DNA of 64,000 bases from Harmothoe impar (Eukaryota > Annelida > Polychaeta > Phyllodocida > Polynoidae), in the NCBI GenBank assembly GCA_947462335.1, contig OX381714.1, forward strand, positions 35,488,025 through 35,552,024. The letters run 5' to 3'. Both the position numbers and the translations under genes were made by a program. Position 1 is the first letter of the stretch. The number at the start of each line of letters is the position of its first letter. Below are positions 6,581-64,000 of the stretch, one piece after another. The notes beneath the pieces were generated by a model. It saw nothing but the letters and a program-made list of their open reading frames with translations, searched no databases and was not told the origin of the DNA.

Positions 6581-6602
6581 ATTATGAAGGTTAACATACT
6601 AA

Positions 6603-6922
6603 GGGAGTGATCATTTTTTAACAACAGGGGGGGGGTGGTGGGTTTCCATGCGGAGCGCGCGAAATTTTTTACCCCCCCCCCCGGTCAAGGGGTCAACATT
6701 TTTCCACCCCCCCCCCCCTTAGGGTCGAAAATCGGCTCGCGCGCGGGCCCTTTGAAGCATAGTAACGCGCGGGCTTTTTGGCTCAAAACAGGTTAAATTT
6801 TTTTGCCCCCCCCCCCAAGAGGGGTCCAAATTTTTTTGCCCCCCCCCGGGTCAAGGGGTCCAAATTTTTTTGCCCCCCCCCAAACCCACCACCCCCCCTG
6901 TTGATAATAAATGATCACTCCC
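6603..6922. mobile_element. Poly-C Harbinger-type MITE, complete copy 1
   Basis: A 320 bp element bounded by inverted termini GGGAGTGATCATTT and its complement ATGATCACTCCC. A direct TAA lies immediately outside each end (6600-6602 and 6923-6925). The interior is a series of C-runs separated by AAATTTTTT-like spacers. Terminal GGG plus a 3 bp TWA target duplication is the PIF/Harbinger signature. There is no coding capacity, and the proline-rich frame at 6778-6969 is just the translated C-runs. Confidence 0.85.
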
Positions 6923-6925
6923 TAA

Positions 6926-9442
6926 AGGTCAAATCCCACAACGCTAGAGAGGGTCAGAAAATGATGTGAATTGGTCTTATTGCCGATGTTGGGCCCTATT
7001 TTGGCTAACATAAGTCCAAATCGGTGAGAAAGGGTTGCCTTTGTCTTGTGATTTGGGAAATCACAAGGATCAAATGAGTTAGATATTTGCCCCCGGAAGG
7101 CCTAGAAAATGTTGCTTATTGGATTATGTCAATGATTTGGCTTATATAGGGGGGGGGGACCCTCCAAATATCTTTTGGCTAATTGAGAGGAAATAGTGAG
7201 GACAAATCATACTGTGAAGTAACTCCCCTCAAACAGATCCATTTACCAGTCCTGGACACAACACTTTGCTTGCCTATTATTGACCACTGTGGGATTTGGA
7301 GAGGCATAAGATCATGGGACAAGTGTTGCGATTTACAATATTGGCAATAGTTGCCCCTTGTTTTTATGTCAATAATCAACACTTTCTGGCCCATTTTTCG
7401 CGTTGTGGGATTTGACCTTAAGGGTTTAGAACGTCATCTGCAGCCACCACCCTATTAAACATATTTTAGTTGTAATTTTCATACTGCTCACAAGGTGTGT
7501 ATTCAACAAATCTCGAGGACAGGTCATCTGTCAAGTTGTTATCTGCTATGGCCTGCATTATGGTCCTTTTTGCAGATCGTGCCTCTAAGCCAGAAGGATA
7601 AGTGACAAGAGAAATGATGGATAGAATGCAAATGTATAAATGTACTGACAAATGACGGATAGCCATGCCACTACTGAAGAGATGTCTTTAAATTTTTCGA
7701 GTTGAAGGATCTCTGTTCATCAATTTAATTCGAGAAAAAGTTTAAAGATCAGGTGTACCCTTAATTAGATATTGACAAGAAATACATAGGTGGATCCGTT
7801 GTGGTACCCCACAACAACATCATGTGTAGTGCGTGTATAAGACATCCTTTCGGTAGTGTGTGTTGGCAGGAGTATATATACGTAAAGGTGACTTCATTGT
7901 TTCTATCTCTATAGAAAACCACTATAAGCCTGTTTCCTACAAATACAATCGACCAGTACAAATAGAACTACCTCGTGTTGACCTGGTGGCTATAGGGTAC
8001 AGAGTATGGCCTCATGCCCCCTTCACTCCAGTCCTGGCTCCCACCGACCCTGGAGGGCTGGGTTAGACACGCTACAGTCCCAGGTGAGGGAGTGCACTCC
8101 ACCACCTAACCTCACCCCATACCGAAGGCTTTAAAAATTTAACAAAGGCTTTGTATTGGTTCTACCACGGAGGAGAAGCGTGCCACTCCCTCCAGTGTGG
8201 CGAATACATCCATATACAACAGATCTCATATAGAGCACTCCCTTGGGGAGGAGGTCGGTGGCTTAGCTATGCCCTTTTCCTCCTGCTCCTATCTTATAGA
8301 TTAATTTCCGCCTCGTGATAGTTTGGTGTGGGAAGGTTAACTGCAAACCACAAATACTGTAAACATACGTTCCCTTTCCCAAGATGCAGGATATAGAGCA
8401 CCCTGTTCTACCTACCAGGCTACAATCTCTTAAGAGCACAATTTTACAAAAAACGGGAAGCGACGGCTGAGGATTTTTGCTTAGCATTAAGACATGACTT
8501 TGTCATTTATGTGTGTTCACTGCTGTAAAATACTAATTTGGATGTGTTATACCTAATTTTTTCTTTTCCGATCATTTAGTACAATGTACATAGAATTCAT
8601 TTCTAGCCAATTGGTGTCAAATGCAGACAAAACATCATTTCTACAGCTAATCATGCCAGAAGTAACTTTAAATAGGTTTTATTTAGACCTAAATTGGCCA
8701 TTGACAGGTTTTTGACAGGCTTCTCAAGCGTTTAAAGTATCCAGTATGTTCCAAGTTTGCTCTTGAGACCCTTTGCATGAAACATGGACTTCGAATTCCC
8801 AAAACACGTCTGTCCATGGTTATCAAAACTATATTAAGGTGGGATTTGGGTGATTATCTGCTGATATATGGGGCAAAAAGTGAACACAAGGAAAACTCTT
8901 TAAATACTCTTTGAAATGATTATTTATCTTAGCTGAAACCTGTTGTAAAATTCCCTGAAGGTAAGCATAGTGGGATGGCCGAAACAGTGTTCATCTGTAC
9001 TCTGTCCAAACGCAGGGCAAAAGGGCACACCATATTTGGCTGCTCAGCAAAACTTGAAAATTGAACAACTCAGCAACTACTTGTCTCATTGACTTCCAGT
9101 TCAAAGCTTTTAAAAGAAACAGATAGTGACTTTCTAATTGACTTGGAGAGCAGACAGTCTACTAAGAAGTGATTTCTGACATTTCCGCGGTAACTTTAGA
9201 GCTTCACATATCAGGAACTTGACGTGCTGCTGTGATCAATGTAGGCTCAGATGCAGCAGGATTTTGTTTTACAATTTCTATTGACTTTTTATTTGAGAAA
9301 CATAAAGTGGCTATCAGTGATAATGGTTTGAGTGATGAAAGGTTGCGGAAAGTTGAACATTTCAGATAATTTCATCATGATGGCAATGTACCAGTCCTGC
9401 ATTTTTCAAAATATGTGACACCATCTGCGGCGAAAAAAAACC
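6926..9442. other. No gene recognised
   Basis: About 2.5 kb of ordinary AT-rich sequence with a G-run near 7149 and short open frames without recognisable domains. The minus strand around 8370-8440 has a weak resemblance to a tRNA D-arm but no T-arm, so I do not call an RNA gene. Confidence 0.5.
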
Positions 9443-9445
9443 TTA

Positions 9446-9772
9446 GGGAGTGTTCATTTATTAATTACAGGGGGGGGGGTGGTGAGATTTCGCGCGGAGG
9501 GGCGAAAAATTGTTACGCCCCCCCCCCTCGAGAGCGCGTGTAACGATTTGCGCCCCCCTCGCCGAAGGCGCCGAAAATTTTTCGCCCCCCCCCCCCTTTG
9601 AACTATAGTAACGCGCGGGCTTTTTGGCTAAAAAGGGGCTTAAATTTTTACGCCCCCCCCTCAAGAGGGGTCAGAATTTTTTACGCCCCCCCCTCAGAAG
9701 GGGTCGGAAATTTTTACGCCCCCCCCCCCCAAACCCACCACCCCCCCCTGTAAATAATAAATGAACACTCCC
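9446..9772. mobile_element. Poly-C Harbinger-type MITE, complete copy 2
   Basis: A 327 bp copy of the same family as the element at 6603. Inverted termini are GGGAGTGTTCATTTATTA and its near-complement, with TTA directly repeated at 9443-9445 and 9773-9775. Its internal landmarks, including a central CTATAGTAACGCGCGGGC and C-runs, were used to orient the broken copies at 10458, 17081, 17225 and 19540. Confidence 0.88.
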
Positions 9773-9775
9773 TTA

Positions 9776-10454
9776 GTGCAAGGTGCATTAAGGTCCCTTT
9801 TCCCAGTACATGTCACATATGCAAATAATGATTGTAAAATCTGGTAGCCCATCATGTTAGCTTCAAAGTCATATCTGGATCACCATTGTAGATACAGTGG
9901 TGGTGAAATGATCAGTGATTCCTTGAAATCAACAGGGGTAAACTATGTTTTCCAGGTCTTGTCTTGGTCACATGGAGTATAGCGATGAATCTGGTTTCTC
10001 CATACACGCAGCCATGTTGCCGGATGTTGCTCTGAGATCTCACGGGAAATTCCGTGCTCAGAGCCAAGGTCCCGTCGGAAGTTACGTACCAAGGGCGAGA
10101 TATGCTGGTTACTGAAGTGGCCCTCATATAATCCCTTTCATGTCATTGGGAACCAGCACTATTGTAGCTGTTTATCAATAGGTCATGGGGCACAGAAGTT
10201 TGCAGTTTACACAACACCGACACATCACCAAACACATTACCTCCTCTATCCAGGAACGACAAGGAAAAGAGCAGGTAAGAGTCTATTCTTCACCATTCCG
10301 TAATAATGAGGTACAGTGGCTAGAGTGGGAGTGTAATTGCTGTAGAGAGGGGTGTAGACACACGGGTGCCCATGGAGTCCAGGGGCAGGAGTGGACAGCC
10401 TACAGCACACTGTGAGTGTGACTGCAGAGCCCTGCACCGTTTCCTAAGCCTTAA
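9776..10454. other. No confident gene; one weak exon candidate
   Basis: An open frame begins with ATG at 10185 and is followed at 10275-10280 by a good 5' splice-site match (GAGCAG then GTAAGA). Nothing else supports an exon and the peptide is not recognised. Confidence 0.2.
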
Positions 10455-10457
10455 TAG

Positions 10458-10622
10458 GGAGTGATCATTTATTAGTTACGGGGGAGGGGGGATTTGGGGG
10501 GAGGTATAAAGATTTTCGACCTCTCCCATAGGGCCCCTATGCCCCTTTTTTTCAGCAAAAAAAAAGCCTGTGCATTGCTAAAGTTTGAAGAGGGAGGGCA
10601 AACAATTTTGCCGTCTACGTTG
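10458..10622 (-). mobile_element. Left half of a MITE split by the retroelement
   Basis: Starts with the family terminus GGGAGTGATCATTTATTA. It matches the reverse complement of the right half of the copy at 9446, including the block GCCCC-T(n)-AGC-A(n)-GCC and the spacer AATTTTGCC. The match stops at 10622, just where a run of T begins. Its missing half is at 17081-17204. The 3 bases outside the terminus (ATA) do not match those beyond the other half (TTT), so the MITE's own target duplication is eroded. Confidence 0.75.
10618..10622. repeat. Target-site duplication CGTTG, 3' side of retroelement
   Basis: CGTTG occurs immediately beyond the retroelement's A tail and again at 17081-17085, next to its 5' end. 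Joining the MITE halves through a single CGTTG restores the expected order of MITE landmarks. Five bases is short for a LINE, so chance microhomology is possible. Confidence 0.55.
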
Positions 10623-10631
10623 TTTTTTTTT
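10623..10631 (-). other. 3' A tail of retroelement, preceded by small stem-loop
   Basis: Nine T on the plus strand read as A(9) at the end of the coding strand. Directly before it the coding strand reads GATGAAACCATC, which can fold as a 4 bp stem with an AAAC loop. A terminal A tract against a target duplication is typical of target-primed reverse transcription. Confidence 0.65.
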
Positions 10632-10694
10632 GATGGTTTCATCGTTTTATTTTGTCCCACCTTGCATGAGAAGTAGTAACCATACATGTATTTT

Positions 10695-10936
10695 CTTATC
10701 ATTCACGACAAGAACTAATCCATGTCAACGATGTAGAAACAAAAGTATCCTGTACTGAACTTATTTCGTTGGCACCATACTCAGAGTATTATTATACACA
10801 ACAAGTACTCAAGCTTATTGGTTTACTGAACAAAAATAGAGTTAATACCATACCCAGATACCATACCTTCTATACCTTCCTAGAACCTTACATGTTCAGT
10901 TGGTGCTATACACAGAGTCTTATTATACACAACAAG
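10695..10936 (-). repeat. Three hairpin repeats in the retroelement 3' region
   Basis: Coding-strand hairpins at 10936-10919, 10805-10788 and 10712-10695 follow the pattern CTTGTY-N6-RATAAG. The first two lie in a tandem duplication with a 131 bp offset (about 10771-10844 against 10902-10976). They match three hairpins upstream of the RT ORF at 14470-14828. The copy at 10788 has lost its closing pair. Confidence 0.65.
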
Positions 10937-11280
10937 TACTCTAAATGACTGGTTATCTGGACAAAATAAACAATAGGCTGCGTTTTAGCTGTGAGGCTAA
11001 TTCGAGGGCAGCAGCCGTACCTGGTGTAATAATAACTTCCTTGTAGCACTACAGTGTGCACTTGACAGGCGTCCAATGTATTAACTTTCATACAATCATT
11101 GCATGTGTACTAATCAGTTCAATTGTGCTCTCTATGATTTCTAGATAATTCACAGCTACACAGTACATTACATCCAAGGCATTATTCTTCATACCCAAGA
11201 ACTTTGATACCCGTCACTTCACTGATTCCTTTACAGATTAGTCCTTTGTAGGTGCCATCAGTTTAATAAGAATTTTGGTT

Positions 11281-11292
11281 ATGTATGTATGT
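11281..11292 (-). repeat. Short (TACA)n tract after RT stop codon
   Basis: Three units of ACAT lie about 30 bases after the RT stop. A short tandem repeat here could be mistaken for a CR1-type 3' end, but the hairpins and A tail further on suggest the transcript continues to 10623. Confidence 0.4.
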
Positions 11293-11321
11293 GTAGGATT
11301 GGAGTAGGGTGTGGATCCCCA

Positions 11322-14189
11322 TCAGGGAATTTCCAATTTCGGTTTGTTTATTTCAAGGAATTTAGAAATTTCAAGTTTAAATTTGTCGAGAGTTTCTAAA
11401 GATCGGTCCTCTGGCTCTAAATCATTCCAAACAAAGGCTAATGTATGCTCTAGGCTTCTAGTGTAGGCCCCACTGTGGGCTGTGTGACATTTGAGAATAG
11501 GTCCCTCCCAGGCCCTCGTGTTAAGATTCCTATGATCTTTATATTTGTCTTTTCTACTTCTGATGTAGGCTTCTTTAAGCTGGTGAGCATACATCCTGTC
11601 CTCCAGCATGTTCAACTTAGCCACTGCGTGAATTTGGTACGTAGGAGTAAGATGATCTACCCTTTGTGCTACCTTTAACCCTCTATTTTGAGCTTTTTGT
11701 CTCTTCTTTAATATGTCCTTCTTCACACCTGCATATAGTATATCCCCATACTCAATAATAGGTGATATATAAGTCTTATACAAGAGTATTGCCATATATA
11801 CATCAATGAACGCGCTAAGCCTAGCCATTTGATACGTTCTGAAAGCAGCCGTCTTCAATTGGTGATTGGCAAACTTTTCATATGATAATGACTTATCCAA
11901 TATCACTCCTAGGTATTTGTACTGTTCCACCTCATGAATAGGCTCGTGGTTTATCACTAACTTGCAATTATTCCAATGCACCTGACCTGAAAAACACATA
12001 AACTTAGTCTTTTTGCTATTAATTGTTAACCTATTAATTCTACACCAATTATAATAAAGGTCCAGATCCTCTTGCATTTTCAAATTCAATTCTTTCTGAT
12101 TTTTACCAGTTACATATAAAACAGTATCATCAGCGTATAACAGTACCTTGCTATGTTTACATATTAGCTCCATGTCATTGATGTATAATAAGAACAATAA
12201 GGGTCCCAAGATCGAGCCCTGAGGGACACCACACTTAATATCCAAGTTAGGTGACTTATAGTTGTTGGCCAATGTACACTGTTTTCTACCTTTGAGATAA
12301 TCCCCCAACCAAATACCTGCCTTTCCCACTATCCCATATCTGTCACACTTCCTAAGTAATATGCTATGATCCACAGTATCGAAGGCCTTTTTCAGGTCAA
12401 TAAATACAGCCAGGGTGTTATTACCAATATTTCTTTCTCGTAAAATGTCATCCGTCAATTCCCCTATAGTTTGAATAGTTGAGTGCTCCTTTCTATAGCC
12501 CCCTTGTATTGCAGACAATAAATTGTTTTCATCTAAATAAGCCATTAAGTTTCTATGTACAATTTTCTCCAACAGTTTTGAAGGCAAAGGTAACAAGGAT
12601 ATTGGTCTATAATTCTCAACCAGGGACAAGTTGCCATCTTTTGGGATGGGGATAATAGTTGCCTCCTTCCAACATTCTGGTACCTTCTGTGTTGCTAATG
12701 AACATTTAAACAAGTGTGTACATTGTGTCACCAAATGTGTGAATGCATCTTTAAGAACCACAGTGCTTGCTTGACTAAAGCCTGAAGACTTATGTACATT
12801 GATGTCTTTGATCAGTTTAGCTACTTCTTCTTCACTCGTGGTAAACTCAGTTAACTCACATTGAGCTGTGGGGAAGTTTGGTACCCAGTTAGTGTGATTA
12901 CCTTCTGACAACTTAGCACCTATGTTAGTAAAATATGTGTTTATTTCCTGGGCAACTTTATCAGACTTAATTATCTCCCCTGTGTCTCCCGACATCAATG
13001 ATATAATTGTCTTATCATTATTTCCTGGTAGAAGCTCAGCAATTTCTTTCCAGAACAGTCTGGGATTGTTTCTGTGCTCATCCAATTTCTGCTTAACATG
13101 GGTACCCTTTGTCTTAATGACCAACTTAGAGGCTTTATTTCTGTCCTTGTTAGCCTCTTTTAACGCAACATAGCTTTTTGATAACTTTGCTTTGCTAACT
13201 ATCCTATCCTTTTCTTTCAAGTTAGACAATAGGTCATTAGTCAACCACGGTTTTTTATTACCCTTGACTTTGTATTTCGTCCAGGGACACAGGACATCTA
13301 ATACATGTACAATTCTATCAAAAATAATTTTCCAAAGAATATCAACATCTTGAGTATTATAAAATATATTCCAGTTAAATGCATTCAATGCTCTCGTGAG
13401 ATTCTCTTTGGTATAGCTTTTCATCCTTCTGCAGTCTACAAAGTCTTTGACTGTGGAAACTACCCTGTCTACTTTGGAAGTGACATACACCATGTCGTGG
13501 TCACTGGGACCAAATTGTACAGTACCAGCTTCAACTACTGTGTCAATGTTAGTAAATATTAGGTCACGACAGGTTTGACTCTTTGCATATCTAGTGGGAA
13601 TGTTAATAAAGTTCATCAATCCAAAACCCATCATACCCTGTCGAAATTTCTCAGCCTCCTCTCCCATGGCAATCATGTCAATATTCATGTCCCCCAATAC
13701 ATAAATCTCATATTTGTGTAGTCTATGGACTCTGGACAATATTTCCTTGACTTTCTTCCAGAACAAATCAAAGTCCCCTTTGGGGGGTCTGTATACATTG
13801 AGAATTAAGATATTTTTCTTTTTCTCCCTTGCTATCATTACTGGGAGTAATTCCAATTCCTGTGTACTAACAACCTGTACATCCTGACAACAAGTGACTG
13901 TATATTCATCTTTAATGTAAGTAAGCAATCCCCCAGACTTTTTTAATTTCCCGTTCTCCTTCCAGGTTCTATCAGATCTAATTGTTTGGTATCCGTCAAG
14001 CTTGTAGTTACCGGTAATATTCTTTTCCTCTAGCCACGATTCAGAACATGTTATTACATCTAAAGCACTCCTGTTAAACATTATTTTAAAGTCCTCTATA
14101 CAATTTCTGATGCTACGCAAATTTAAATGTGACATGTGAAAACCCCAATCTGTGGCGAAACTCCCGACATCTTTGTGTACTTTAGTCAT
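11322..14189 (-). CDS. Endonuclease / reverse transcriptase of non-LTR retrotransposon
   Basis: A 955-residue polyprotein that nicks target DNA and primes reverse transcription of the element RNA. The N-terminal apurinic-type endonuclease spans roughly residues 15-240, with N23 in LNLRS, E50 in CSESW, Y133 in NVYRPP, D167 and N169 in GDMN, and S229-D230-H231 in SDHDMV. RT spans roughly 450-780, with NYRPIS near 526-531, FIDLKKAFD near 596-604 (catalytic D598), GVPQGSILGPLLF near 654-666 and YADD at 685-688. A C-terminal extension follows and no RNase H domain is visible. This architecture and length fit the Jockey/CR1 superfamily. The start is a true ATG and there is no stop or frameshift, so the copy may be young or still competent. 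It is the last of three co-directional ORFs, 729 bases after the SGNH stop. Confidence 0.95.
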   Translation of the reverse strand: MTKVHKDVGSFATDWGFHMSHLNLRSIRNCIEDFKIMFNRSALDVITCSESWLEEKNITGNYKLDGYQTIRSDRTWKENGKLKKSGGLLTYIKDEYTVTCCQDVQVVSTQELELLPVMIAREKKKNILILNVYRPPKGDFDLFWKKVKEILSRVHRLHKYEIYVLGDMNIDMIAMGEEAEKFRQGMMGFGLMNFINIPTRYAKSQTCRDLIFTNIDTVVEAGTVQFGPSDHDMVYVTSKVDRVVSTVKDFVDCRRMKSYTKENLTRALNAFNWNIFYNTQDVDILWKIIFDRIVHVLDVLCPWTKYKVKGNKKPWLTNDLLSNLKEKDRIVSKAKLSKSYVALKEANKDRNKASKLVIKTKGTHVKQKLDEHRNNPRLFWKEIAELLPGNNDKTIISLMSGDTGEIIKSDKVAQEINTYFTNIGAKLSEGNHTNWVPNFPTAQCELTEFTTSEEEVAKLIKDINVHKSSGFSQASTVVLKDAFTHLVTQCTHLFKCSLATQKVPECWKEATIIPIPKDGNLSLVENYRPISLLPLPSKLLEKIVHRNLMAYLDENNLLSAIQGGYRKEHSTIQTIGELTDDILRERNIGNNTLAVFIDLKKAFDTVDHSILLRKCDRYGIVGKAGIWLGDYLKGRKQCTLANNYKSPNLDIKCGVPQGSILGPLLFLLYINDMELICKHSKVLLYADDTVLYVTGKNQKELNLKMQEDLDLYYNWCRINRLTINSKKTKFMCFSGQVHWNNCKLVINHEPIHEVEQYKYLGVILDKSLSYEKFANHQLKTAAFRTYQMARLSAFIDVYMAILLYKTYISPIIEYGDILYAGVKKDILKKRQKAQNRGLKVAQRVDHLTPTYQIHAVAKLNMLEDRMYAHQLKEAYIRSRKDKYKDHRNLNTRAWEGPILKCHTAHSGAYTRSLEHTLAFVWNDLEPEDRSLETLDKFKLEISKFLEINKPKLEIP

Positions 14190-14359
14190 TTATGTATATG
14201 TTCCTGAATGTGGACCACTCCCCCCCTCCTACCTCCCTTGTTGATGGATTCCTACATGAGATGATAATGGTATAAAAAATTAAAAGGGCAGTAATAACTG
14301 CATTCCTGATAAACATGGGTCAATATAGGAGCTATAGCACCTGACAGGCGTTCATTTTA

Positions 14360-14407
14360 ATTACAAACAACCAAAAACAAAAAAAACAAAAACAAAAAAC
14401 AAAAAAA
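14360..14407. repeat. A-rich low-complexity tract
   Basis: Runs of A interrupted by single C on the plus strand, so T-rich on the retroelement coding strand. It lies about 170-220 bases upstream of the RT start. It could be a polypyrimidine translation or splicing signal, or simple slippage. Confidence 0.4.
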
Positions 14408-14469
14408 TTTTGCAGTTCAAGATATACCTTCCAGAAACAACATATTTCCTTTCGCTCCCTCATAATCCT

Positions 14470-14828
14470 CTTATCTTCATGACAAGTGGAGTAATCTACG
14501 TACTGATAAGGGGTAGAAGGAGATAGATAAACTACTACTAAATATAAACACCGTCCTAATGTAGCCTCCCTTATCGTTCATGACAAGAAAGGTCCACGTT
14601 TCAGACAAACACACATTTAAGGAACTCATATATATATGTTAAGATTTACCTTGAGTGAAGATTTGATGTCTTGATGGCCCTACATGTACTCTTTAATCAT
14701 TAAATTTGTATGTCATTTGTATTTCAAACCCAATCACTCGACTTATAACAGAACTAAACACCGCGAGTAAATGTGTATTGAAATTCAATGTACTTCAGAT
14801 CTCTACCTATCTTATCATACAGGACAAG
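14470..14828 (-). repeat. Three hairpin repeats between SGNH and RT ORFs
   Basis: Coding-strand hairpins lie at 14828-14811, 14587-14570 and 14486-14470. Examples are CTTGTCATGAACGATAAG and CTTGTCCTGTATGATAAG. Each forms a 6 bp stem with one G-U wobble and a 5-6 base loop. The loop-closing pair is C-G here but U-A in two of the 3' region copies, a compensatory change. All lie in the non-coding gap between the two ORFs. Confidence 0.7.
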
Positions 14829-14918
14829 AAAAGGCAAGCTCCTCGGTCTACATACAATCCCTTTACAAATTTCGACTTTCACTCAAATTCAACCCCGGTG
14901 GACATGACTTATACCCAC

Positions 14919-15599
14919 TTATATTGGCTTATAGCCTTGCATGGCAATTTTGTCTCTGATGTGGGCAAGGTGGGTTGTGAGTACCAGTGCAATTTTCGTA
15001 ATAACCACGTCATTGAAATGTAGGCCATCCTCCAAATACTTTGTATATTCATGCCTACGCCCAACTGTGTTTTTGTTGGTATGCACAATCCTTGAGAACC
15101 ACGGCGTCGAGGTTTTGGCAAGTCTATTTAGGTTGAAGATACACGAGTTGATCCTCCAGATCCCATTATTCATCATGATTTGTCGCTCTGGGGTGGCATT
15201 TGTGCACGTCCTGTTGAGCTGCATTCCTATCAGTGGGCACAATATTATACGCTGGCCCTGGTGCAAGTCTAGTAAATATTTATACATGTCCGTAATCCTG
15301 TCACACATGGCGTACACAAATTCATTCTCGTCTTTCCAATCAAACGTGTAAGTGGTCCTTCCCCCTTTGTACATTGGTCTGTGCGGTGTATTGGTGTCAT
15401 TTATGCCCGCTGCTACGTATACTATATCCCCATTGTTGTGTTTAATGTAGTTGTGGGCTGCGATACAAACGGATTCAAACCTGGCTCCTGGGAGAGCGTA
15501 CACATTGATGTGGAAGTTTGTGGTATCAAGCCTTCTCAATTCCGACTCCATCTTCAAATTGAATCGACTATCAGCAAAATATGCGACCATACGTGACAT
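14919..15599 (-). CDS. SGNH-hydrolase-like protein of the retroelement
   Basis: A 226-residue protein resembling the SGNH/GDSL hydrolase fold of esterases and deacylases. Block I is ADS with Ser11 as nucleophile and Ala in place of the usual Gly. Block II Gly38 is in LPGAR. Block III is GIND at 65-68 with Asn67, and the C-terminal block is DGLH with Asp191 and His194. All residues expected for catalysis are present. There is no signal peptide or membrane segment, so it would act inside the cell. I chose the ATG at 15599, because the frame opens further upstream only through a TTG. CR1-like LINEs carry an esterase domain inside ORF1; here it is a free-standing ORF, 655 bases after the NADAR stop. 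The substrate is unknown. Confidence 0.8.
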   Translation of the reverse strand: MSRMVAYFADSRFNLKMESELRRLDTTNFHINVYALPGARFESVCIAAHNYIKHNNGDIVYVAAGINDTNTPHRPMYKGGRTTYTFDWKDENEFVYAMCDRITDMYKYLLDLHQGQRIILCPLIGMQLNRTCTNATPERQIMMNNGIWRINSCIFNLNRLAKTSTPWFSRIVHTNKNTVGRRHEYTKYLEDGLHFNDVVITKIALVLTTHLAHIRDKIAMQGYKPI

Positions 15600-15650
15600 T
15601 TTGTAGACCTCGTGTTTTGGTGGGATCAACAACCTCGGTTTCCCTGTTAG

Positions 15651-16237
15651 TTTCGTATTATTACTAAAATATCACCACATTATTTGCTTAGTCACTCTTC
15701 TCTAATATTAAAATAAACATATTGTGTATTGCAGTTGCACCGAGGATTTTAAACCAATACGTTCCCTTGTCATTAATAGTCCAGTATTTATACATATTTA
15801 TGATAGATACGAAAACCCCTCTGAAAAACAGCATGCTCCATCTTTCCATACAGAGTTGGTCTCTTTCAGAGGTTTCGTACTCACATCGTGTACGTCAAAC
15901 TTTCCTATGATCAAGTACTCTGCCCTTAAAATTAACAAGTAATTAATTCTGTGCCTTTAATAACCTATGATTAATACTATTACACCGGGATGAGAACAAC
16001 AACCATTTCAATATTATGACCCCGAGATACGAAAATACCCATTCATTTCAACAGTAGCATTCCATGCCGCACTGAGTTAGCCACTACATGAATTTTCGTA
16101 TTTTGCCCTATCTCTAATGCATAACTCGTGATACCCCAACTAATGTTAACTTTATGTGGCAAATAGATCCATTATACAGTATTGTTGGAATGAAGTATTC
16201 TATACATTTACGCACGTGGTAATCTCCAGATACGAAA
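15651..16237. repeat. Nested inverted repeats built from ATACGAAA
   Basis: Six copies of ATACGAAA or its complement (one with TAC at the end) occur in under 600 bases between the NADAR stop and the SGNH start: 15651, 15806, 15873, 16026, 16094 and 16229. Plus-strand order is TTTCGTAT, ATACGAAA, TTTCGTAC, ATACGAAA, TTTCGTAT, ATACGAAA. The middle four form two hairpins (15806-15880, extended by CCTCTGAAA/TTTCAGAGG; and 16026-16101, extended by TTCAT/ATGAA). The outermost two can pair to enclose both. This looks like a branched RNA structure. Confidence 0.65.
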
Positions 16238-16254
16238 CCTCACCAGACAGACGC

Positions 16255-17049
16255 CTAAGTCCGTCTACCTTTCTTGCGCTTTGCTGGAGTCGACTTGCCA
16301 CCCTTGGCGCCGGCCCCTTGGTTATTTTCTTTTATCGCTGGCGGAACTTGATCTTTTTCTGGAGTTGTCTTCAGTGCCTCTGGCACCTTCACCGGCTCTG
16401 GTTCTGGCTTGTCAGGTTCAACTTTCTCAACTTCATCATCAGAATCCGAATCATCATCCGAGTCAGTCTCGCTACTAGAGTCACTTTCAGAGTCATCAGA
16501 GAGGATCTCGTCCCGTAGGTGTTCTAGGATTTGTCCCAGCTGATTTTCACCCTTCAACTTGCTATCCTCGATCTCACTAGCATCCTTGAGCGCCCATCCC
16601 GAACTCCAGTACGTGTCCCCTGTAGTCGCCTCGTACAGGTGACCATCTGTACTCTTCAGCTTCTTCCACAGTCCCCTGTTACCGTACTTGATTCTTTGAA
16701 TCATTTTCATCGTGGGCCTTTTTCTTGACTCCCACTCCTTGTTGTCAATGATCCGGGAGGCTTTCCTCTTTGCCTCATATGGGCAGATTGTAGTTGCTAT
16801 GTCCGCCGCTAGTAAGTTCTGTCCACAGCACACCGCTCGTTGGGACTGGTATAGGGACTCTGCTGTTGAATAGAGGTTTCCTCGATACATGATATCAACT
16901 TTGTGGAAGTTGGATAGGAAAGAGGCTGGCCCTTGAAAAGCAGTACCATCCTTCACCTTCCTTGTTTTACAGTCACTCAACCTTTGTCCAGCTGGCAACG
17001 TTTCAAGTTGGTTGTAGTTGTACCTGTTGTTTCCTATTAACAGGTGCAT
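16255..17049 (-). CDS. NADAR/YbiA-like protein with acidic and basic tails
   Basis: A 264-residue protein. Residues about 38-182 match the NADAR (YbiA-like) fold: F-LSNF near 44-48, STAESLYQ near 61-68, a run of A and I in the next helix, KEWESRK near 104-110, YGNRGLW near 122-128, TGDTYW near 143-148, and GENQLGQIL near 167-175. NADAR proteins cleave N-glycosidic bonds. Bacterial members act on riboflavin precursors or remove ADP-ribose from guanine. Residues 184-207 are almost all Asp and Ser, followed by a Pro/Glu linker and a basic end (KRKKGRR) that may direct nuclear entry or RNA binding. The ATG at 17049 was chosen because the open frame beyond it runs into MITE sequence with no ATG of its own except one inside the MITE. 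It is the first ORF of the element, 31 bases from its 5' end. Activity is inferred. Confidence 0.85.
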   Translation of the reverse strand: MHLLIGNNRYNYNQLETLPAGQRLSDCKTRKVKDGTAFQGPASFLSNFHKVDIMYRGNLYSTAESLYQSQRAVCCGQNLLAADIATTICPYEAKRKASRIIDNKEWESRKRPTMKMIQRIKYGNRGLWKKLKSTDGHLYEATTGDTYWSSGWALKDASEIEDSKLKGENQLGQILEHLRDEILSDDSESDSSSETDSDDDSDSDDEVEKVEPDKPEPEPVKVPEALKTTPEKDQVPPAIKENNQGAGAKGGKSTPAKRKKGRRT

Positions 17050-17077
17050 TCCCCTTTGCTGGGCCTCTCCCCCATTT
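17042..17077 (-). CDS. Possible upstream micro-ORF overlapping the NADAR start
   Basis: Five bases into the element the coding strand has an ATG that opens a 12-codon frame, out of frame with NADAR and ending with TAA just past the NADAR ATG. It could dampen or couple NADAR translation, or be ignored because it lies so close to the transcript end. No family is recognised. Confidence 0.25.
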
Positions 17078-17080
17078 GCT

Positions 17081-17085
17081 CGTTG
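17081..17085. repeat. Target-site duplication CGTTG, 5' side of retroelement
   Basis: Second copy of the pentamer found at 10618-10622. It lies between the inferred 5' end of the element and the resumed MITE sequence. Confidence 0.55.
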
Positions 17086-17204
17086 AGAGGGGGGGGGACC
17101 CCGAAACATGCCATGTGCTCTCGGGTGGGGAGGGGGTGTAAAAAATGTTTGCGCCTCCGCGGGAAATCTCACCACCCACCCCCATAATTAAAAATAACAC
17201 TCCC
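17081..17204 (-). mobile_element. Right half of the MITE split by the retroelement
   Basis: Plus-strand sequence ends with AATAACACTCCC, the family terminus. Read in reverse it matches the left part of the copy at 9446 (GGTGAGATTTC-CGCGGAGG, then GAGAGC). Together with 10458-10622 it makes one MITE copy of roughly 284 bp. It lies in frame with the NADAR ORF, so reading through it would add proline-rich residues that are not part of the element's protein. Confidence 0.75.
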
Positions 17205-17224
17205 TTTCTAAGAGCCTTGGACTC

Positions 17225-17540
17225 GGTAGTGTCGGAGGGGGGGGGGGGTGCCTCCTAAGGTCGGAAAATCGCAAAAGAATTCGACCATTTATGCTGTAAC
17301 TATATTTCCAAAAGTCATTAGGTGGCTTAAATTATTGTACCAGGTAGGCCCTACACATGTTTCAATATGTATACACCACAAATCCCTCCCCCCCTCTTTG
17401 AACTATAGTAATGTACGGGCTTTTTCGCAGAAGAGGGGTGGAATTTATTTTTGACCCCCCCCCTTTAGAGAGGTCCAATTTATTTTGTTCCCCCTGCTCC
17501 CTGTTAAATGGTGACCAGATGTTGATCACTTTCCTACTTT
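17225..17540 (+). mobile_element. Diverged poly-C MITE relic
   Basis: Contains the internal landmark CTTTGAACTATAGTAA followed by a GGGCTTTTT block and C-runs in the same order as the copy at 9446. It ends in a decayed terminus TTGATCACTTTCC. The left end is unclear. Confidence 0.6.
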
Positions 17541-17886: not shown

Positions 17887-18003
17887 GGGGATGAGCCTGG
17901 GCCAGAGATGAGCACCTGCCAGGGACGAGCACATGCCAGAGCTGACCGCCTGCCAGGGACGACCGCCTGCCAGGGACGACCGCCTGCCAGGGACGACCGC
18001 CTG
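17887..18003. repeat. 17 bp minisatellite, GCCAGGGACGACCGCCT type
   Basis: About seven units. The last three to four are identical and the earlier ones are degenerate. Confidence 0.85.
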
Positions 18004-18422
18004 TAAGGGATCCGCAAATTTGTGGACGTCCGTAAATACACTCCATATATTTATGGAGCTGCGCGAATAGATACGGAAGTCCGTATTTGTATGCTTATGT
18101 ACCAAAAAACAATTTTATTCATCATTTTTATTTTCTCCACAAATATGTATGAAATGTGAATTGTGGACATCAGCAAATTTGCGGAAAAAAAGTTTCTTTG
18201 GTGTTGTGTTGTTTCATCACATGCTAGATAATTCTCTGTGAAAACTGTTACATATGATCACTGAGGCCTCCGAGTTGGATATACTCTATTTAATTTCAAT
18301 CAGTGAGTAGCTTAGAGCTGAGGATTTTGGATGATCAATTTGATTAAAGCTGAGTGTGATTCACTGGTTGTATGCACAAATTTACTATACTTTGTTCCTT
18401 ATCCCAGAAACTGATGAGTGGT

Positions 18423-18597
18423 TGCCAGTGACGAGCACGCGCCAGTGACGAGCCTGTGCCAGTGACGAGCACATCCCAGTGACAAGCGCATGCCAGTGAC
18501 GAGCACATGCCAGTGACGAGCGCATGCCAGTGACGAGCGCATGCCAGTGACGAGCAAGTGCCAGTGACGAGTGCATGCCAGTGATGAGCACGCGCCA
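18423..18597. repeat. 17 bp minisatellite, GCCAGTGACGAGCGCAT type
   Basis: About ten units differing mainly in the last five bases. The core GCCAGTGACGAGC is the G-to-T relative of the array at 17887. Confidence 0.88.
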
Positions 18598-19539: not shown

Positions 19540-19799
19540 GGACGGGGGGTCCACCAAAATTATTAGCAAAGGGCAGAAAAGCGATTTTTTTTATGCCCCC
19601 CCACCTCCCATCGACAGTGTGTCAATTCTTTTTGCCCCCCCCCCCCCAGCTGAAGGCGGTTAAATCCCCCCCCCCCCTTAGAATTAGAGTAACATGCTTT
19701 TTTTGCTTGAAACGGTCATAATATTTTAGCCCTTCCCCTTCAGGAGCAGTCTAAATTTTGTATGCCCTTCCCCCTGTAGCTAATAAACGTACACTTCCT
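19540..19799 (+). mobile_element. Diverged poly-C MITE relic
   Basis: Successive C-runs with TTTTTGCC-type spacers, AGAGTAACATGC in place of the usual central block, and a decayed right terminus GCTAATAAACGTACACTTCC. The left terminus could not be placed, and G/C-rich sequence from 19376 may belong to it. Confidence 0.6.
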
Positions 19800-21640
19800 A
19801 CATCTACACAGAGTGAGTGACACTGCCAGTCTAGTATGACTGTAAACTAGTTTATATCTGAGCAGACGAAAGAGTGGGTGATAAGGAGGGATATCCATGA
19901 AATTCAGGTCTGCTTTGTTGGAACATGGCCAATCGCAACAGTTTTCCTTCTAGGAGGAGCAACAACTAAGGGTAATCTGCTAGTTAAATTATCCCAGATG
20001 TTTTAATACCATATAGTTTGTAAGATATCGAACAATGAAATAGACTCTACAAAGAGAGATTAACATGCCCAGAGGCCTTCCAGGAAGTGTCCTCACTGAC
20101 CAGAAACAAGCACAGCAGTGAAATTAGTTCCTTATTTGGCCTGTGTCACTTTCATAGATGGCGCTACCTGTTACGTTACATCGCTATATCCCCTTGCTGC
20201 GATGGACATACAGCATATCAACGCCTGTATGTATCATTCAACGCCTGTGTACTATGGGATGTAAAATAACTATTGTCTCGTTAAATGGCAAGAACATGAT
20301 TTCTCTCTTCATTCTGCACATAGATTCGATCACCATCATGAAAATATTTAGCTATTATCTGGGGATTTAAGCAACCGCGGGGCTTTTTCATAAGACACCA
20401 CAAATCAAAGGCCTTTCATCATGTGACAATACCTGTTTCACGATCATGAGAAGGATGATTGTCAAAATTGTTTCGCAAAAATATAATTATATATGAATAT
20501 GCAAGAATATATAATATATGTAGCCACCACCCTTACACGAAAACTCCTGATGTATTTTGACAAAAATATAATTATCAAGAGTCATGATTAAGTTAAAAGA
20601 CCTCCCGGAAAACGATCATCCAACTAACTAGCTAACTACGGTTAGCAGAGTGTGCATCAACACTGTCCTCATAGAACCTGATATACCAATATTTCACGCT
20701 CGTTCACATAGGCATTAAAAAGAAGCACAACACTATGAATAGGTAATGGGCCGTTCCTAAATTAATTGGGCCGATACGATCACAGTTCTAATGAGGTGGC
20801 ATTCCACAACCGTCCCTTAAACATAAAGATAATTAAGACCCCTCCAGAGGCAATGAACCATGAACAGTTAATCCTGTGAGAGAATGAGGCAGTCTGGTGG
20901 TCGGGGGAGAGGGGCGTTCGCTGCAGGTCATAGATTAGGTATAGGGTGACGCTGAAGGGCTCGGTGAGGAGTAGGGAGTGGGAGAGAGGTATATCTATAT
21001 AGTCTAGGGAAGTTTAGAAAATGTTCAGATTTCAAGTCATTTTTTTTTATTCCAGGAGGATAGTTTTAGTAGTATTTAGAAAGGGTTTGAACATAAAACC
21101 TAGTTAAATGTGAAGTCCGCAATTGAAGAGATTAAATATGTACATGGCTTAATGATGAGCATCACATGAATCTTCCACCATCGTGACCATGCCCAATTAC
21201 GCAAAACAGTCTAATTGTTATCATGGGTGGCAGTAATTTGGTAAGGTAATTCAAGGGCTATATATAAAAGAAGAGGGGGTATGAGTGATGGATTCCGATA
21301 GTGGTAGCCAGGCATGGAGTAGCCTCTATTTATCAAGTAAATGTCAGGTGCTGCACAATTATAATCAAGGACAAACAGACATTGGTCCAACTCATAAAAG
21401 TCGCTGAAGAATGTGTAAAGTGCAAAACTGTAGTGAGCATCTACAATGACATCAAATACCAATCCCTAAACTCAAAGTATGCTCCGAAATATTCGTACAA
21501 CCTCTCTGTATTTAGGACCTAATTAGTAACCCAAATGTAAATAATTGACGATTTATAGCTACCTAAATCTACTCCTAACCAATATCTACTTTAGATGAAG
21601 ACATTCTGGTACACCATTGGCTTGTATGACTGATGTTGAT
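19800..21640. other. No gene recognised
   Basis: About 1.8 kb of AT-rich sequence. A short direct repeat (CAAAAATATAATTAT at about 20476 and 20559) is the only structure seen. Confidence 0.5.
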
Positions 21641-41592: not shown

Positions 41593-44547
41593 TGTGGGGT
41601 CTTTACACTACAAATCAGTCTTTAGACTACAAATTGATACCAATTTGTTGCGTAAAGACACACCACGGGTCTTTACACTACAAATGTGTCTTTAAAGCAC
41701 AAATGTCTTTACGCTACAAATGTCTTTAGACCACAAATGTCTTTACGCTACAAATGTCTTTACGCTACAAATGTCTTTAGGCTACAAACTGGGCAAAAAT
41801 ATGTCAGTCTTTACGCAACAAATCCTATATAGTGGTCTCAGGTATCAAACTGGGCATAAAAATCGTCAGTCTTTACACAGCAGATGCTATATAGTGGTCT
41901 CGGGAACTAAAATGCACTCATAGATCAGTCAGTCTGTATGCAACAAACCCTATATAGTGGTCTCAGGTACAAAACTGGGTTTAAAAGATCAGCCAGTCTT
42001 TACGCAACAAATCCTATATAGTATTTTATGGTACCAAACTGGGCTTCAAAATCGGTCAGTCTTTACGCAACAAACCCTATATAGTGGTCTATGGTACAAA
42101 ACTTGGCTTAAAAATTGGTCAGTCTTTACGCAACAAATCCTATATAGTAGTGTCAGGAACCAAAATGGGCTTATAGATCAGTCAGTCTTTACGCAACAAA
42201 TCCTATATAGTGGTCTCGGTTACCAAACTGGGCTTAAAAATCAGTCAGTCTTTACGCAACAAATCCTATATAGTGGTGTCAGGTACCAAACTTGGCTCAA
42301 AGATCAGCCAGTCTTTACGCAACAAATCCTATATAGTGGTCTCAGGAACTAAAATGGACTTATAGATCAGTCAGTCTTTACACAACAAACCCTATATAGT
42401 GTTCTATATAGCCAAATTGCACTTAAAGATCAGCCAGTCTTTAGGCAACAAATCCTATATAGTATTCTATGGTACCAAACTGGGCTTAAAAAGTGGCCAG
42501 TCTTTACGCAACAAACCCTATATACTGTTCTGTGGTACCAAACTGGGCTTGAGGAATTGGTGAGTCTTTAAGCAACAAACACTACAAAGTGGTCTATGGT
42601 ACAAAACTTGGCTAAAAAGTCGGTCAGTCTTTTTGCAGCAAACCCTATATAGTAGTTTCAGGAACCAAAATGGGCATATAGATCAGTCAGTCTTTACGCA
42701 ACAAACCCTATATAGTGGTCTATGGTACAAAACTTGGCTTAAAAATTGGTCAGTCTTTACACAACAAATCCTATATAGTAGTGTCAGGAACTTAAAAATC
42801 AGTCAGTCTTTACGCAACAAATCCTATATAGTGGTGTCAGGTACCAAACTTGGCTCAAAGATCAGCCAGTCTTTACGCAACAAATCCTATATAGTGGTCT
42901 CAGGAACTAAAATGGACTTATAGATCAGTCAGTCTTTACGCAACAAATCCTATATAGTGGTCTCGGTTACCAAACTGGGCTTAAAAATCAGTCAGTCTTT
43001 ACGCAACAAATCCTATATAGTGGTGTCAGGTACCAAACTTGGCTCAAAGATCAGCCAGTCTTTACGCAACAAATCCTATATAGTGGTCTCAGGAACTAAA
43101 ATGGACTTATAGATCAGTCAGTCTTTACGCAACAAACCCTATATAGTGTTCTATATAGCCAAATTGCACTTAAAGATCAGCCAGTCTTTACGCAACAAAT
43201 CCTATATAGTATTCTATGGTACAAAACTGGGCTTAGAAATTGGCCAGTCTTTACGCAACAAACCCTATATACTGTTCTGTGGTACCAAACTGGGCTTAAG
43301 GAATTGGTGAGTCTTTAAGCAACAAACACTACAAAGTGGTCTATGGTACAAAACTTGGCTAAAAAGTCGGTCAGTCTTTTTGCAGCAAACCCTATATAGT
43401 AGTTTCAGGAACCAAAATGGGCATATAGTTCAGTCAGTCTTTACGCAACAAACCCTATATAGTGGTCTATGGTACAAAACTTGGCTTAAAAATTGGTCAG
43501 TCTTTACACAACAAATCCTATATAGTAGTGTCAGGAACCAAAATGGGCTTATAGATCAGTCAGTCTTTATGCAACAAATCCTATATAGTGGTCTCGATTA
43601 CCAAACTGGGCTTAAAAATCAGTCAGTCTTTACGCAACAAATCCTATATAGTGGTGTCAGGTACCAAACTTGGCTCAAAGATCAGCCAGTCTTTACGCAA
43701 CAAATCCTATATAGTGGTCTCAGGAACTAAAATGGACTTATAGATCAGTCAGTCTTTACGCAACAAACCCTATATAGTGTTCTATATAGCCAAATTGCAC
43801 TTAAAGATCAGCCAGTCTTTACGCAACAAATCCTATATAGTGGTGTCAGGTACCAAACGTGGCTCAAAGATCAGCCAGTCTTTACGCAACAAATCCTATA
43901 TAGTGGTCTCAGGAACTAAAATGGACTTATAGATCAGTCAGTCTTTACGCAACAAACCCTATATAGTGTTCTATATAGCCAAATTGCACTTAAATATCAG
44001 CCAGTCTTTACGCAACAAATCCTATATAGTATTCTATGGTACCAAACTGGGCTTAAAAATTGGTCAGTCTTTACGCAACAAACCCTATATAGTGGTCTAT
44101 TGTACAAGATTTGTTGCATAAAGACTGACTGATTTTTAAGCCCAGTTTGGTACCATAGATCACTATATAGGATTTGTAGCATGTAGACTGGCTGATCTTT
44201 AAGGGTAGTTTGGCTATATAGAACAGTATATAGGGTTTGTTGCGTAAAGACTGACAGACTTTTAAGCACAGTTTGGTTCCTGAGACCACTATATAAGATT
44301 TGTTGCGTAAAGACTGACAGCTTTTTGTGCCCAGTTTGTAGCCTAAAGACATTTGTAGTGTAAAGACATTTGTGGTCTAAAGACATTTGTAGTGTAAAGA
44401 CATTTGTGGTCTAAAGACATTTGTAGCGTAAAGACATTTGTGCTTTAAAGACACATTTGTAGTGTAAAGACCCGTGGTGTGTCTTTACGCAACAAATTGG
44501 TATCAATTTGTAGTCTCAAGACTGATTTGTAGTGTAAAGACCCCACA
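41593..44547. mobile_element. 2955 bp foldback element with minisatellite core
   Basis: Begins TGTGGGGTCTTTACACTACA and ends with its exact complement. The inverted arms are near-identical for at least 300 bases. The outer part of each arm is built from about 17 bp subrepeats (GTCTTTACGCTACAAAT type) and the inner part from 60 bp units. A 5 bp AAGGG duplication flanks it and an empty paralogous site is present at 34.38 kb. The overall plan resembles Drosophila FB and sea-urchin TU foldback elements. TG...CA ends with a 5 bp duplication also fit an integrase-type transposase. It is non-coding, so mobility would need a partner. Confidence 0.9.
41800..44345. repeat. 60 bp minisatellite core of the foldback element
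   Basis: About 40 units of roughly 60 bases. Each has GTCTTTACGCAACAAA, then YCCTATATAGT, then a GGTACCAAACTGGGCTTA-like segment. Units run in plus orientation to about 44100 and in minus orientation from about 44105 to 44345. A higher-order period of 746 bases is visible (compare 42520-42760 with 43266-43506). Because 60 is a multiple of three, several long frames with an FTQQILYS motif appear in the track; they are not genes. Confidence 0.9.
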
Positions 44548-62297: not shown

Positions 62298-63080
62298 GTG
62301 ATTCACTAATGCATGGTGATGCACTAATGCATGCATGATGATGCACTGATGCATACATGGTGATGCACTGATGCATGCATGGTGATGCACTGATGCATGC
62401 ATGGTGATGCACTGCTGCATACATGGTGATTCACTAATGCATGCATGGTGATGCACTAATGCATGCATGATGATGCACTGCTGCATACATGGTGATTCAC
62501 TAATGCATGCATGGTGATGCACTGATGCATGCATGGTGATGCACTGATGCATACATGGTGATGCACTAATGCATGCATGGTGACGCACTGATGCATATAT
62601 GGTGATGCAAGATGCATACGATGATGCACTTGTGCATGCATGGTGATGCAGTGTTGCATGCATGATGATGCACTGATGCATATATGGTGATGCACTGATG
62701 CATGCATGGTGATGCACTGATGCATACATGGTGATGCACTAATGCATGCATGGTGACGCACTGATGCATACATGGTGATGCACTGAGGCATGCATGATGA
62801 TGTACTGATGCATACATGGTGATGCAAGATGCATGCACGATGATGCACTAATGTATGCATGGTGACACACTGATGCATACATGGTGATGCAAGATGCATG
62901 CACAATGATGCACTTTTGCATGCATGGTGATGCACTGATGCATACATGGTGATGTACTGATACATACATGGTGATGCACTTATGCATGCATAATGATGCA
63001 CTTGTGCATGCATGGTGGTGCACTCATGCATGCATGATATAACACTTGTGCATGCATGGTGATGCATTCATGCATGCATG
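62298..63080. repeat. 22 bp GATGCATGCAT minisatellite
   Basis: About 35 units of the type TGATGCACTGATGCATGCATGG. Most units contain the palindromes ATGCAT and GCATGC. Variants alternate between ATGCATGC and ATGCATAC. The His-rich frames here are translations of the repeat. Confidence 0.95.
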
Positions 63081-63540
63081 GTATAAGGGGTGTCAGCTTA
63101 GTATAGGGGGTATTGATATAGAGGTGTATAAGGCACTGGTATTCAAATGTAGGAGACATGGCTATAGGAGTGTATCAGACTAGTGGTATAGTGTGATTGA
63201 TATGGATATAGGGATATACCAATTAAAACGGTTGAAAATAAAGCCATATGATATCATTGAAGTAAATGTTTATTTAAAACTACCTTCTCTGCCCATTACA
63301 GATCAACCCAGCTACCCAGTCAGTGTAAAGACAGAGAGCGTCTCTCATAGAGAGACATAAGAGGTAAATTTTTGAATATTCCAGAAAAAATTCATTTTGT
63401 TTTTATGAAAACCAAATGCTTAAGGGGTGACTGCAATGAATCTAGTGCTGTATTGATGCATTATGCTGGTGTTCCAGTCAGCATGATGCATGAATGCATC
63501 ACTGGTGAAGTAGTTACAGCCTGCATTCATGCATAGTGAT
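63081..63540. other. Spacer between repeat arrays
   Basis: Unique-looking sequence with scattered TGATGCATGAATGCAT elements towards its right end. No gene seen. Confidence 0.5.
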
Positions 63541-63599: not shown

Positions 63600-64000
63600 A
63601 TGCATCATGCCTTCTGTAGACTAGCCCACACTGCTTCAACTACACAGTGATTCATTCATGCATCATGACTCCTGTAAACTAACCCTTTATGATGGCACAC
63701 AGCTTCAACTACACAGTGATGCACTCATTCATAATGACTCATGTACACTTACCCTTTAAGGATGGCACACTGCTTCAACTGAGCAGCACTTCATTTATGC
63801 ATCATGCCTTCTGTATGCTAACCCTTTTAAGAGATCACACTGATTCAAATGTGCAGCACTTCATTTGTGCATCATGCCTTCTGTATGGTAACCCTTTAAG
63901 GATGTTACATTGCTTTAACTACACAGTGATGCACTCACGCATCATGATTCCTGTAAGCTAACTCTTAAAGGATGGCACACTCCTTCAAGTACACAGTGAT
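63600..64000. repeat. 70 bp satellite running off the right edge
   Basis: The block CTTCAACTACACAGTGAT or a variant begins at 63633, 63703, 63773, 63843, 63913 and 63983, an exact 70-base period. Each unit also has GCATCATG, CCTGTA and CTAACCCTTTAAGGATGGCA blocks. It shares GATGCACTCAT-type sequence with the 22 bp minisatellite, suggesting a common origin. Confidence 0.9.

Follow-up and report, generated by a model that had tools for sequence, protein, structure and literature searches.

A LINE of the polychaete Harmothoe impar in which a NADAR-bearing ORF1 and a free-standing SGNH-type hydrolase precede the endonuclease–reverse transcriptase

Long interspersed nuclear elements (LINEs) usually carry one or two open reading frames (ORFs). 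A 64,000-nucleotide stretch of the Harmothoe impar genome (assembly GCA_947462335.1, contig OX381714.1, forward-strand positions 35,488,025 to 35,552,024; hereafter the window, with its first letter as position 1) contains on its minus strand a NADAR-domain frame, an SGNH hydrolase-like frame and an endonuclease–reverse transcriptase (EN-RT) frame in a row, which raises the question of whether the three belong to one mobile element or merely lie side by side. Our answer is that the element at 10623..17080 is, with high probability, a 5′-truncated copy of a non-LTR (long terminal repeat) retrotransposon with three ORFs: an ORF1 combining a coiled coil with a NADAR domain, an SGNH-type ORF2 and an EN-RT ORF3, a judgement in which we include the mechanism proposed below.

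The insertion spans 6,458 bp of the minus strand, ends in nine A residues (10623..10631; T9 on the plus strand) and is flanked, as read from the sequence, by the target-site duplication CGTTG, located at 10618..10622 on the 3′ side of the element and at 17081..17085 on its 5′ side. On either side lies half of a palindromic miniature inverted-repeat transposable element (MITE), the first half at 17089..17205 and the second at 10455..10619 (both minus strand), as judged by blastn against the uninterrupted copies at approximately 9442–9776 and 6600–6925. The 5-bp repeat would by itself be weak evidence; the split MITE is strong evidence for the boundaries. The coordinates given for the single bounded insertion by an earlier, sequence-only reading of the window are exact, and homologous copies elsewhere in the genome support the same delimitation. 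We also asked whether the inverted repeat at 10561–10598 and 17388–17425 could mark the termini of a large DNA transposon, and rejected this: the repeat belongs to MITE-like sequence. The MITE family itself is approximately 330 bp long, C/G-rich and near-fully palindromic, with the ends CTTAGGGAGTG..CACTCCCTTAG, and is found in the window at 6600–6925, 9442–9776 and 19640–19820.

All three frames lie on one strand, as the sequence-only reading had it; its description of all three as intact does not hold for the first, which is a truncated ORF1. What is left is the 3′ part (16255..17080, minus strand, first in-frame Met at 17049), comprising the end of a CTD-like region (C-terminal domain, see below), the NADAR domain (16504..16929) and an acidic/basic tail, and the 306-amino acid NADAR frame as originally listed continues into the MITE flank. 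Aligned to the related genomic copy L012, the insertion begins at approximately codon 208 of a 485-codon ORF1, and thus approximately 0.8 kb is missing from the window copy. The ORF1 of L012 starts approximately 212 nt past the shared 5′ end, and the aligned unit is 6.75 kb long in L012 and approximately 7.2 kb in L009. Downstream of ORF1 follow, again on the minus strand, the free-standing SGNH-type ORF2 (14919..15599, 226 amino acids from a conserved Met), a 729-nt spacer (14190..14918) and ORF3 (11322..14189, 955 amino acids) with the endonuclease and the RT.

If the three ORFs are mobilised together, the same layout should recur elsewhere in the genome. We searched the host assembly (1.51 Gb, 736 contigs); all counts are lower bounds, with 150 of 1,263 SGNH candidates and 147 of 3,401 NADAR candidates scored, and 49 RT matches retrieved, 48 of 21,770 RT candidates having been scored. 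Upstream of 92 of the 150 scored SGNH matches lies a same-strand NADAR at a distance of up to 2.5 kb (by start coordinate); none of the 150 has an opposite-strand NADAR within 2.5 kb, and an SGNH lies downstream of 91 of the 147 scored NADAR matches. Of the 49 RT matches, 27 are preceded by both other ORFs, five by the SGNH alone, one by the NADAR alone and 16 by neither, a distribution that fits a 5′-truncation series. We then fetched 20 loci spread across the SGNH ranking (L009–L028). NADAR, SGNH and EN-RT are collinear in 16 of them, and in nine all three frames are unbroken; three others (L011, L015 and L025) consist of SGNH and RT, with no NADAR found. Since this layout recurs across the genome, the order of the three ORFs is not due to chance.

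Comparison of other copies of the whole unit, as the sequence-only reading had suggested, revealed shared ends and parallel divergence of the three ORFs: L012 and L013 form a paralogous pair with 94.3% identity across 6,762 columns and common ends. The protein distances of ORF1, SGNH and RT agree (Mantel r 0.976–0.985, n = 15, p 0.0001; r 0.77–0.84 among 11 close copies) in a test covering loci with all ORFs present and unbroken (thus without L010, L011, L013, L015, L023, L025 and L028) and without the more diverged L030–L034. In the 11 pairs compared, the proportion of nonsynonymous differences (pN) was 0.01–0.21 against 0.16–0.91 for synonymous ones (pS) in each of the three ORFs, which, as a sequence-level measure, indicates purifying selection on each ORF in these pairs. 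Matches at 98% identity span just the 3′ 1,532 and 443 bases of the element, suggesting recent 5′-truncated siblings. The proposal that the upstream ORFs are mobilised with the RT is thus borne out, and movement of NADAR, SGNH and EN-RT as one unit is supported by these observations. Outside the window, a target-site duplication was recognised at L020 (9 bp); the other 10 of 11 copies have no clear duplication at both ends. In one further copy (G000:C18:47962446-47967004), the DNA matches to RT and NADAR leave out what should lie between them, the SGNH and the beginning of the RT, which looks like an internal deletion.

The same data dispose of the notion that the locus is a chance composite, in which an ordinary LINE inserted beside or inside another element carrying NADAR and SGNH. 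Such an origin would fit the long spacers between the ORFs, and a hairpin that recurs on both sides of the RT (see below) is what a nested insertion might give; the collinear loci, the paralogous pair with common ends, the congruent distances and the truncation series refute it, and we give it practically no credence. A related candidate, a target duplication around the RT alone, was suggested by the repeat GACAGGCGT at 11064 and 14343 and was also rejected, because its spacer copy is present in six of 15 copies checked and its 3′ untranslated region (3′UTR) copy in the window only. Close by, at 14363–14407, the spacer has an A-rich run (T-rich in the sense direction) beside a GCCTGTC motif common to six of the 15 copies.

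Several loci do not show the full three-ORF layout. Two of the 16 RT-only matches were fetched. L035 aligns with the three-ORF copy L010 at 96% identity across 4,114 columns; it begins approximately 153 nt beyond the stop codon of the SGNH and extends to the common 3′ end. In L036, similarity to its relatives begins, by alignment, approximately 96–116 nt past that stop. Neither begins near 14200 or has the conserved ends, near 11280 and 14200, that had been named in advance as evidence against joint mobility; both start in one stretch of the spacer, at differing points about 96–169 nt past the SGNH stop. The simple reading is that these RT-only copies would be truncations, although a transcript starting inside the ORF2–ORF3 spacer may also yield them. 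Many DNA matches end near 14350, including those of copies that continue into the SGNH, which indicates that spacer similarity fades there. Furthermore, L028 has NADAR and SGNH with the family RT absent downstream, and two loci picked for 29–31% NADAR matches (L030 and L031) have a NADAR-ORF1 and EN-RT sequence with no SGNH detectable; on the branch of L030, the SGNH would have been either lost or not yet gained. In L028 (1800–5800), two long frames of another kind (643 and 645 amino acids) lie downstream of the NADAR and SGNH ORFs, perhaps another inserted element, and L030 contains a head-to-tail duplication of approximately 3.38 kb (L030:328-7701), with two near-identical ORF1 copies, the second after a truncated endonuclease frame.

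How old is the combination? L029, picked for its 38% NADAR match, encodes the complete set: Pfam recognises the NADAR, and the SGNH and EN-RT were identified by reading and alignment. Three loci picked for 28–30% SGNH matches with no NADAR listed (L032, L033 and L034) all turned out to encode a diverged NADAR in ORF1 (Pfam E-values 2.3e-19 to 2.8e-16), with the EN-RT confirmed by Pfam in L032 and read by eye in L033 and L034. In an unrooted RT tree that includes L032 and L033, a branch with 100/100 support sets apart a group made up of the 11 RTs located behind a NADAR, the RT of L025 and the database RTs P0008–P0025, which are known from the RT alone; the relatives in our RT trees are all unlabelled. 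Since diverged loci keep it, the NADAR–SGNH–RT combination is old, and as far as sequence comparison goes the three ORFs have been kept jointly even in subfamilies that diverged deeply.

ORF3 identifies the element as a LINE. The window protein matches Pfam RVT_1 with an E-value of 1.4e-37 and Exo_endo_phos_2 with 0.0014, below the cut-off of that family; in the relative L032 the latter match reaches 3.9e-6. An APE-type endonuclease and an RT in one ORF, a common 3′ end with an A tail, 5′ truncations and a target-site duplication are the features by which LINEs are recognised, and all are found here. The top Protein Data Bank (PDB) match for the RT is chain 8c8j (54 bits), which we take to be L1 ORF2p, despite a differing motif: the RT here has GVPQGSILGPLLF where 8c8j, by alignment, has TRQGCPLSPLLF. 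The motif points tentatively to a CR1/Jockey placement. Tx1 elements resemble L1, and the motif difference therefore speaks against grouping the element with the oyster Tx1 LINEs in a single lineage, in which only the SGNH ORF would be new. Such a common lineage, suggested by the NADAR-like ORF1 reported in several Tx1 families of Crassostrea gigas (PMC12477816), is in our estimation unlikely.

Full-length ORF1 is 469–516 amino acids long in 15 of the 17 NADAR-bearing loci among L009–L028 (L010 and L016 are shorter), and consists of an N-terminal coiled coil, recognised by its weak similarity to coiled-coil families and chains, a central region, the NADAR domain and an acidic, then basic tail. 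The central region is possibly akin to the RNA recognition motif (RRM) and CTD of L1ORF1p: profile comparison gave an HH score of 26.4 (E-value 0.0013, probability 18%), the best of 100 shuffles scoring 23.4. This assignment is weakened by a narrower profile of the region, which scored 19.3 against 18.0 with an HH probability of 2%, and by Pfam and PDB sequence searches, neither of which found an RRM/CTD in ORF1. A search of the host genome with Transposase_22 gave no match, and neither did its control.

The NADAR domain itself is recognised with confidence. The window copy scores 71.3 bits against a Pfam cut-off of 35.1 (E-value 1.4e-19), the family score is reached by all 13 ORF1s of our alignment A3 as well as by L029, L030 and L032–L034, and the family profile retrieves 8bau and 2b3w from the PDB as solved relatives by sequence. 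Three NADAR relatives were present in the protein collection (31–34% identity), and PADLOC gave one NADAR match (PDC-M42C). NADARs strip ADP-ribose from guanosine in RNA in vitro (PMC11833690) and also act on DNA ADP-ribosylation (PMC11543638), and those of eukaryotic RNA viruses have been proposed to counter host ADP-ribosylation (PMC9503650).

Does the LINE domain do the same? It might instead be a nucleic-acid-binding or structural module, or an enzyme of small metabolites, with no action on ADP-ribosylated RNA or DNA, and its fusion to an RNA-binding-like ORF1 is consistent with such a role. In the E. coli C7 NADAR, the equivalent catalytic residues are E88 and K95 (PMC11543638). The Glu is kept in all 19 ORF1s read (the 13 of A3 and L029–L034), and the position seven places further on is basic, Lys or Arg, in 18 of them. 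Several features detract from a role in ADP-ribose removal: the catalytic Lys is replaced by Arg in the close relatives and the window copy and by Ser in L033; in DarT1-linked NADARs the residue used is an Asp, D171, which the superfamily as a whole does not share (PMC11543638); and the top NCBIfam model is TIGR02464, a riboflavin-intermediate N-glycosidase, at 68.5 bits, below its cut-off of 73.7. With D171 not shared across the superfamily and TIGR02464 as the best model, the substrate of the domain is unreadable from sequence. As to the Arg, C7 K95R was active in vitro and did not rescue cells (PMC11543638). The 13 ORF1s without exception have Glu282, Glu358 and Trp366 (L012 numbering), which, along with the near-universal basic residue, argues against a purely structural or metabolic role; we regard such a role as somewhat unlikely, though a real contender.

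The ORF2 product scores lower. The window protein matches Pfam Lipase_GDSL_2 with an E-value of 0.0054 (17.7 bits, below the cut-off of 32.9), and among nine family proteins scanned the cut-off is passed by that of L028 alone (33.2 bits). Of its eight scanned relatives, five gave a GDSL match at E-values up to 1, and L026, L029 and P0006 gave none. The assignment is supported by the catalytic blocks: all 11 sequences have the Ser, the Gly and the Asp-His pair, and 10 have the Asn. The SGNH profile A1 found no match among PDB sequences, PADLOC gave no match for the SGNH, and no SGNH relatives were confirmed in viral contigs. Four proteins from public contigs (P0004–P0007) are 67–72% identical to the window SGNH. 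The best match of P0004 in the host genome is 78% identical, and P0004 must therefore have a different origin, probably in a different species judging by this divergence.

The copies share a recurring hairpin, CTTGTC-RTGNAN-GATAAG. It was counted in 20 sequences (the window copy and L009–L027) with a strict pattern that leaves the sixth pair free, which yielded 65 sites: 37 in the ORF2–ORF3 spacer, 28 in the 3′UTR, none elsewhere on the sense strand and one in antisense. Twenty shuffles of the spacer and 3′UTR zones gave 0 or 1 strict sites. With up to two mismatches allowed, 75 sites fall in the 29.3 kb of spacer and 3′UTR, as compared to 17 in the 171 kb elsewhere. The window copy has three in the spacer (14811..14828, 14570..14587 and 14470..14486, the last with a 5-nt loop) and two in the 3′UTR (10919..10936, with a U-A closing pair, and 10695..10712), all on the minus strand. 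Closer to the end lie a 3′-terminal stem-loop, CUCAU-GCAAG-GUGGG (10656..10670), and a poly(A)-signal-like AATAAA (10646..10651), both also on the minus strand. In a search that fixed the loop as GYAAG and demanded RATAAA ahead of the A run, leaving only the arms free, 12 of 21 sequences matched this 3′ end, and the five-base arms are fully paired in all 12. Rfam gave three matches, every one below the gathering score.

In the RNA of the element, the hairpins probably serve protein binding or act as signals for translation. GATAAG resembles a GATA-factor site, and this resemblance, together with the small variation of the hairpin arms, would favour a DNA-level site, such as paired GATA-like sites, over an RNA structure. 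Pairing points the other way: the free sixth pair is C-G in 52 sites, T-A in seven, T-G in six and mismatched in none, the arms retain a G-U pair, most sites have an R-T-G-N-A-N loop and there is the single antisense match. We therefore consider a DNA-level site distinctly improbable. Counting against its generality, the strict form is present in 18 of the 20 sequences and absent from L024 and L027. Among L028–L031, which lie outside these counts, there is no match of the family type, L028 having one of another sequence. The spacers are also long for a polycistronic LINE RNA (351–703 nt between ORF1 and ORF2 and 528–729 nt between ORF2 and ORF3, in 14 copies), and this counts against the translation of ORF2 and ORF3 from one RNA being straightforward.

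We propose the following mechanism. By analogy with LINE biology, a single polyadenylated RNA would encode and yield the three proteins, multimers of ORF1p would coat it, and the EN-RT would insert it by target-primed reverse transcription starting at the 3′ stem-loop and A tail. If the known biochemistry of NADARs applies, ORF1p would bring its own guanosine-ADP-ribose hydrolase into the ribonucleoprotein, and the domain could strip ADP-ribose placed by host antiviral ADP-ribosyltransferases on the element RNA or complementary DNA. The SGNH may act on acyl esters and on membranes in particle assembly or transport, as suggested by the zebrafish LINE esterase ZfL2-1, which is active and binds phospholipid (PMC3905857). 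The hairpins might mark the RNA for the element proteins or aid translation after the long spacers. The most far-reaching version – an ancient LINE clade with a three-protein particle, in which NADAR erases host guanosine ADP-ribosylation and the esterase and hairpin organise the particle or its translation – we put forward tentatively, as possible rather than probable.

A large, long-lived three-ORF clade with two accessory enzymes widens the known cargo of LINEs. The NADAR domain ties LINEs to nucleic-acid ADP-ribosylation. Little is known of how this modification contributes to the defence of animals against mobile RNA, and a transposon keeping NADAR under purifying selection would make the question of such a defence directly testable. 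The separate SGNH ORF and the strictly placed hairpin, in turn, offer handles on LINE particle assembly and on the translation of a three-ORF RNA. Elsewhere in the window, we noted minisatellite arrays with 17-, 63-, 22- and 70-bp units at 17901–18010, 18423–18591, 41669–44471, 62309–63082 and 63627–64000.

How does the element compare with known systems? We found no report of NADAR and SGNH together in one LINE, in a search that subscription papers and Repbase notes mostly lay outside; neither ‘NADAR’ nor ‘esterase’ occurs in the main text of a bivalve LINE survey (PMC10294476). Compared by description only, the oyster Tx1 LINEs share a NADAR domain in the ORF1 of an animal LINE (PMC12477816), and differ in that the accessible text mentions no SGNH ORF and in that the RT motif here is not L1-like. 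A retrotransposon-captured NADAR is also described, within Pol, in Gypsy elements of Ectocarpus (PMC12477816). The CR1, L2 and RTEX LINEs, ZfL2-1 included, similarly combine an SGNH-type hydrolase with an EN-RT, and their esterase sits in an ORF1 without defined RNA-binding domains (PMC3905857, PMC4120745, PMC5408684), whereas here the SGNH is a separate middle ORF and ORF1 pairs a possible RRM/CTD with NADAR; in a survey of 448 elements, esterase ORF1s were reported as confined to two vertebrate L2 and CR1 groups (PMC4120745). The Type II (L1ORF1p-like) ORF1 of L2 and CR1 offers a likeness that is suggestive only, a coiled coil followed by an RRM/CTD-like region (PMC4120745), and differs by the C-terminal NADAR fusion found here. 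Among rotifer elements, which carry GDSL ORF3s, the bdelloid LTR and Athena elements have likewise captured a free-standing GDSL/SGNH ORF; these, however, are LTR or Penelope-like elements with the GDSL as ORF3, and the available text makes no mention of NADAR (PMC5408684). Each of the two enzymes in a LINE ORF1 has thus already been published, and what appears to be new here is NADAR and SGNH in one LINE, together with a conserved RNA hairpin.

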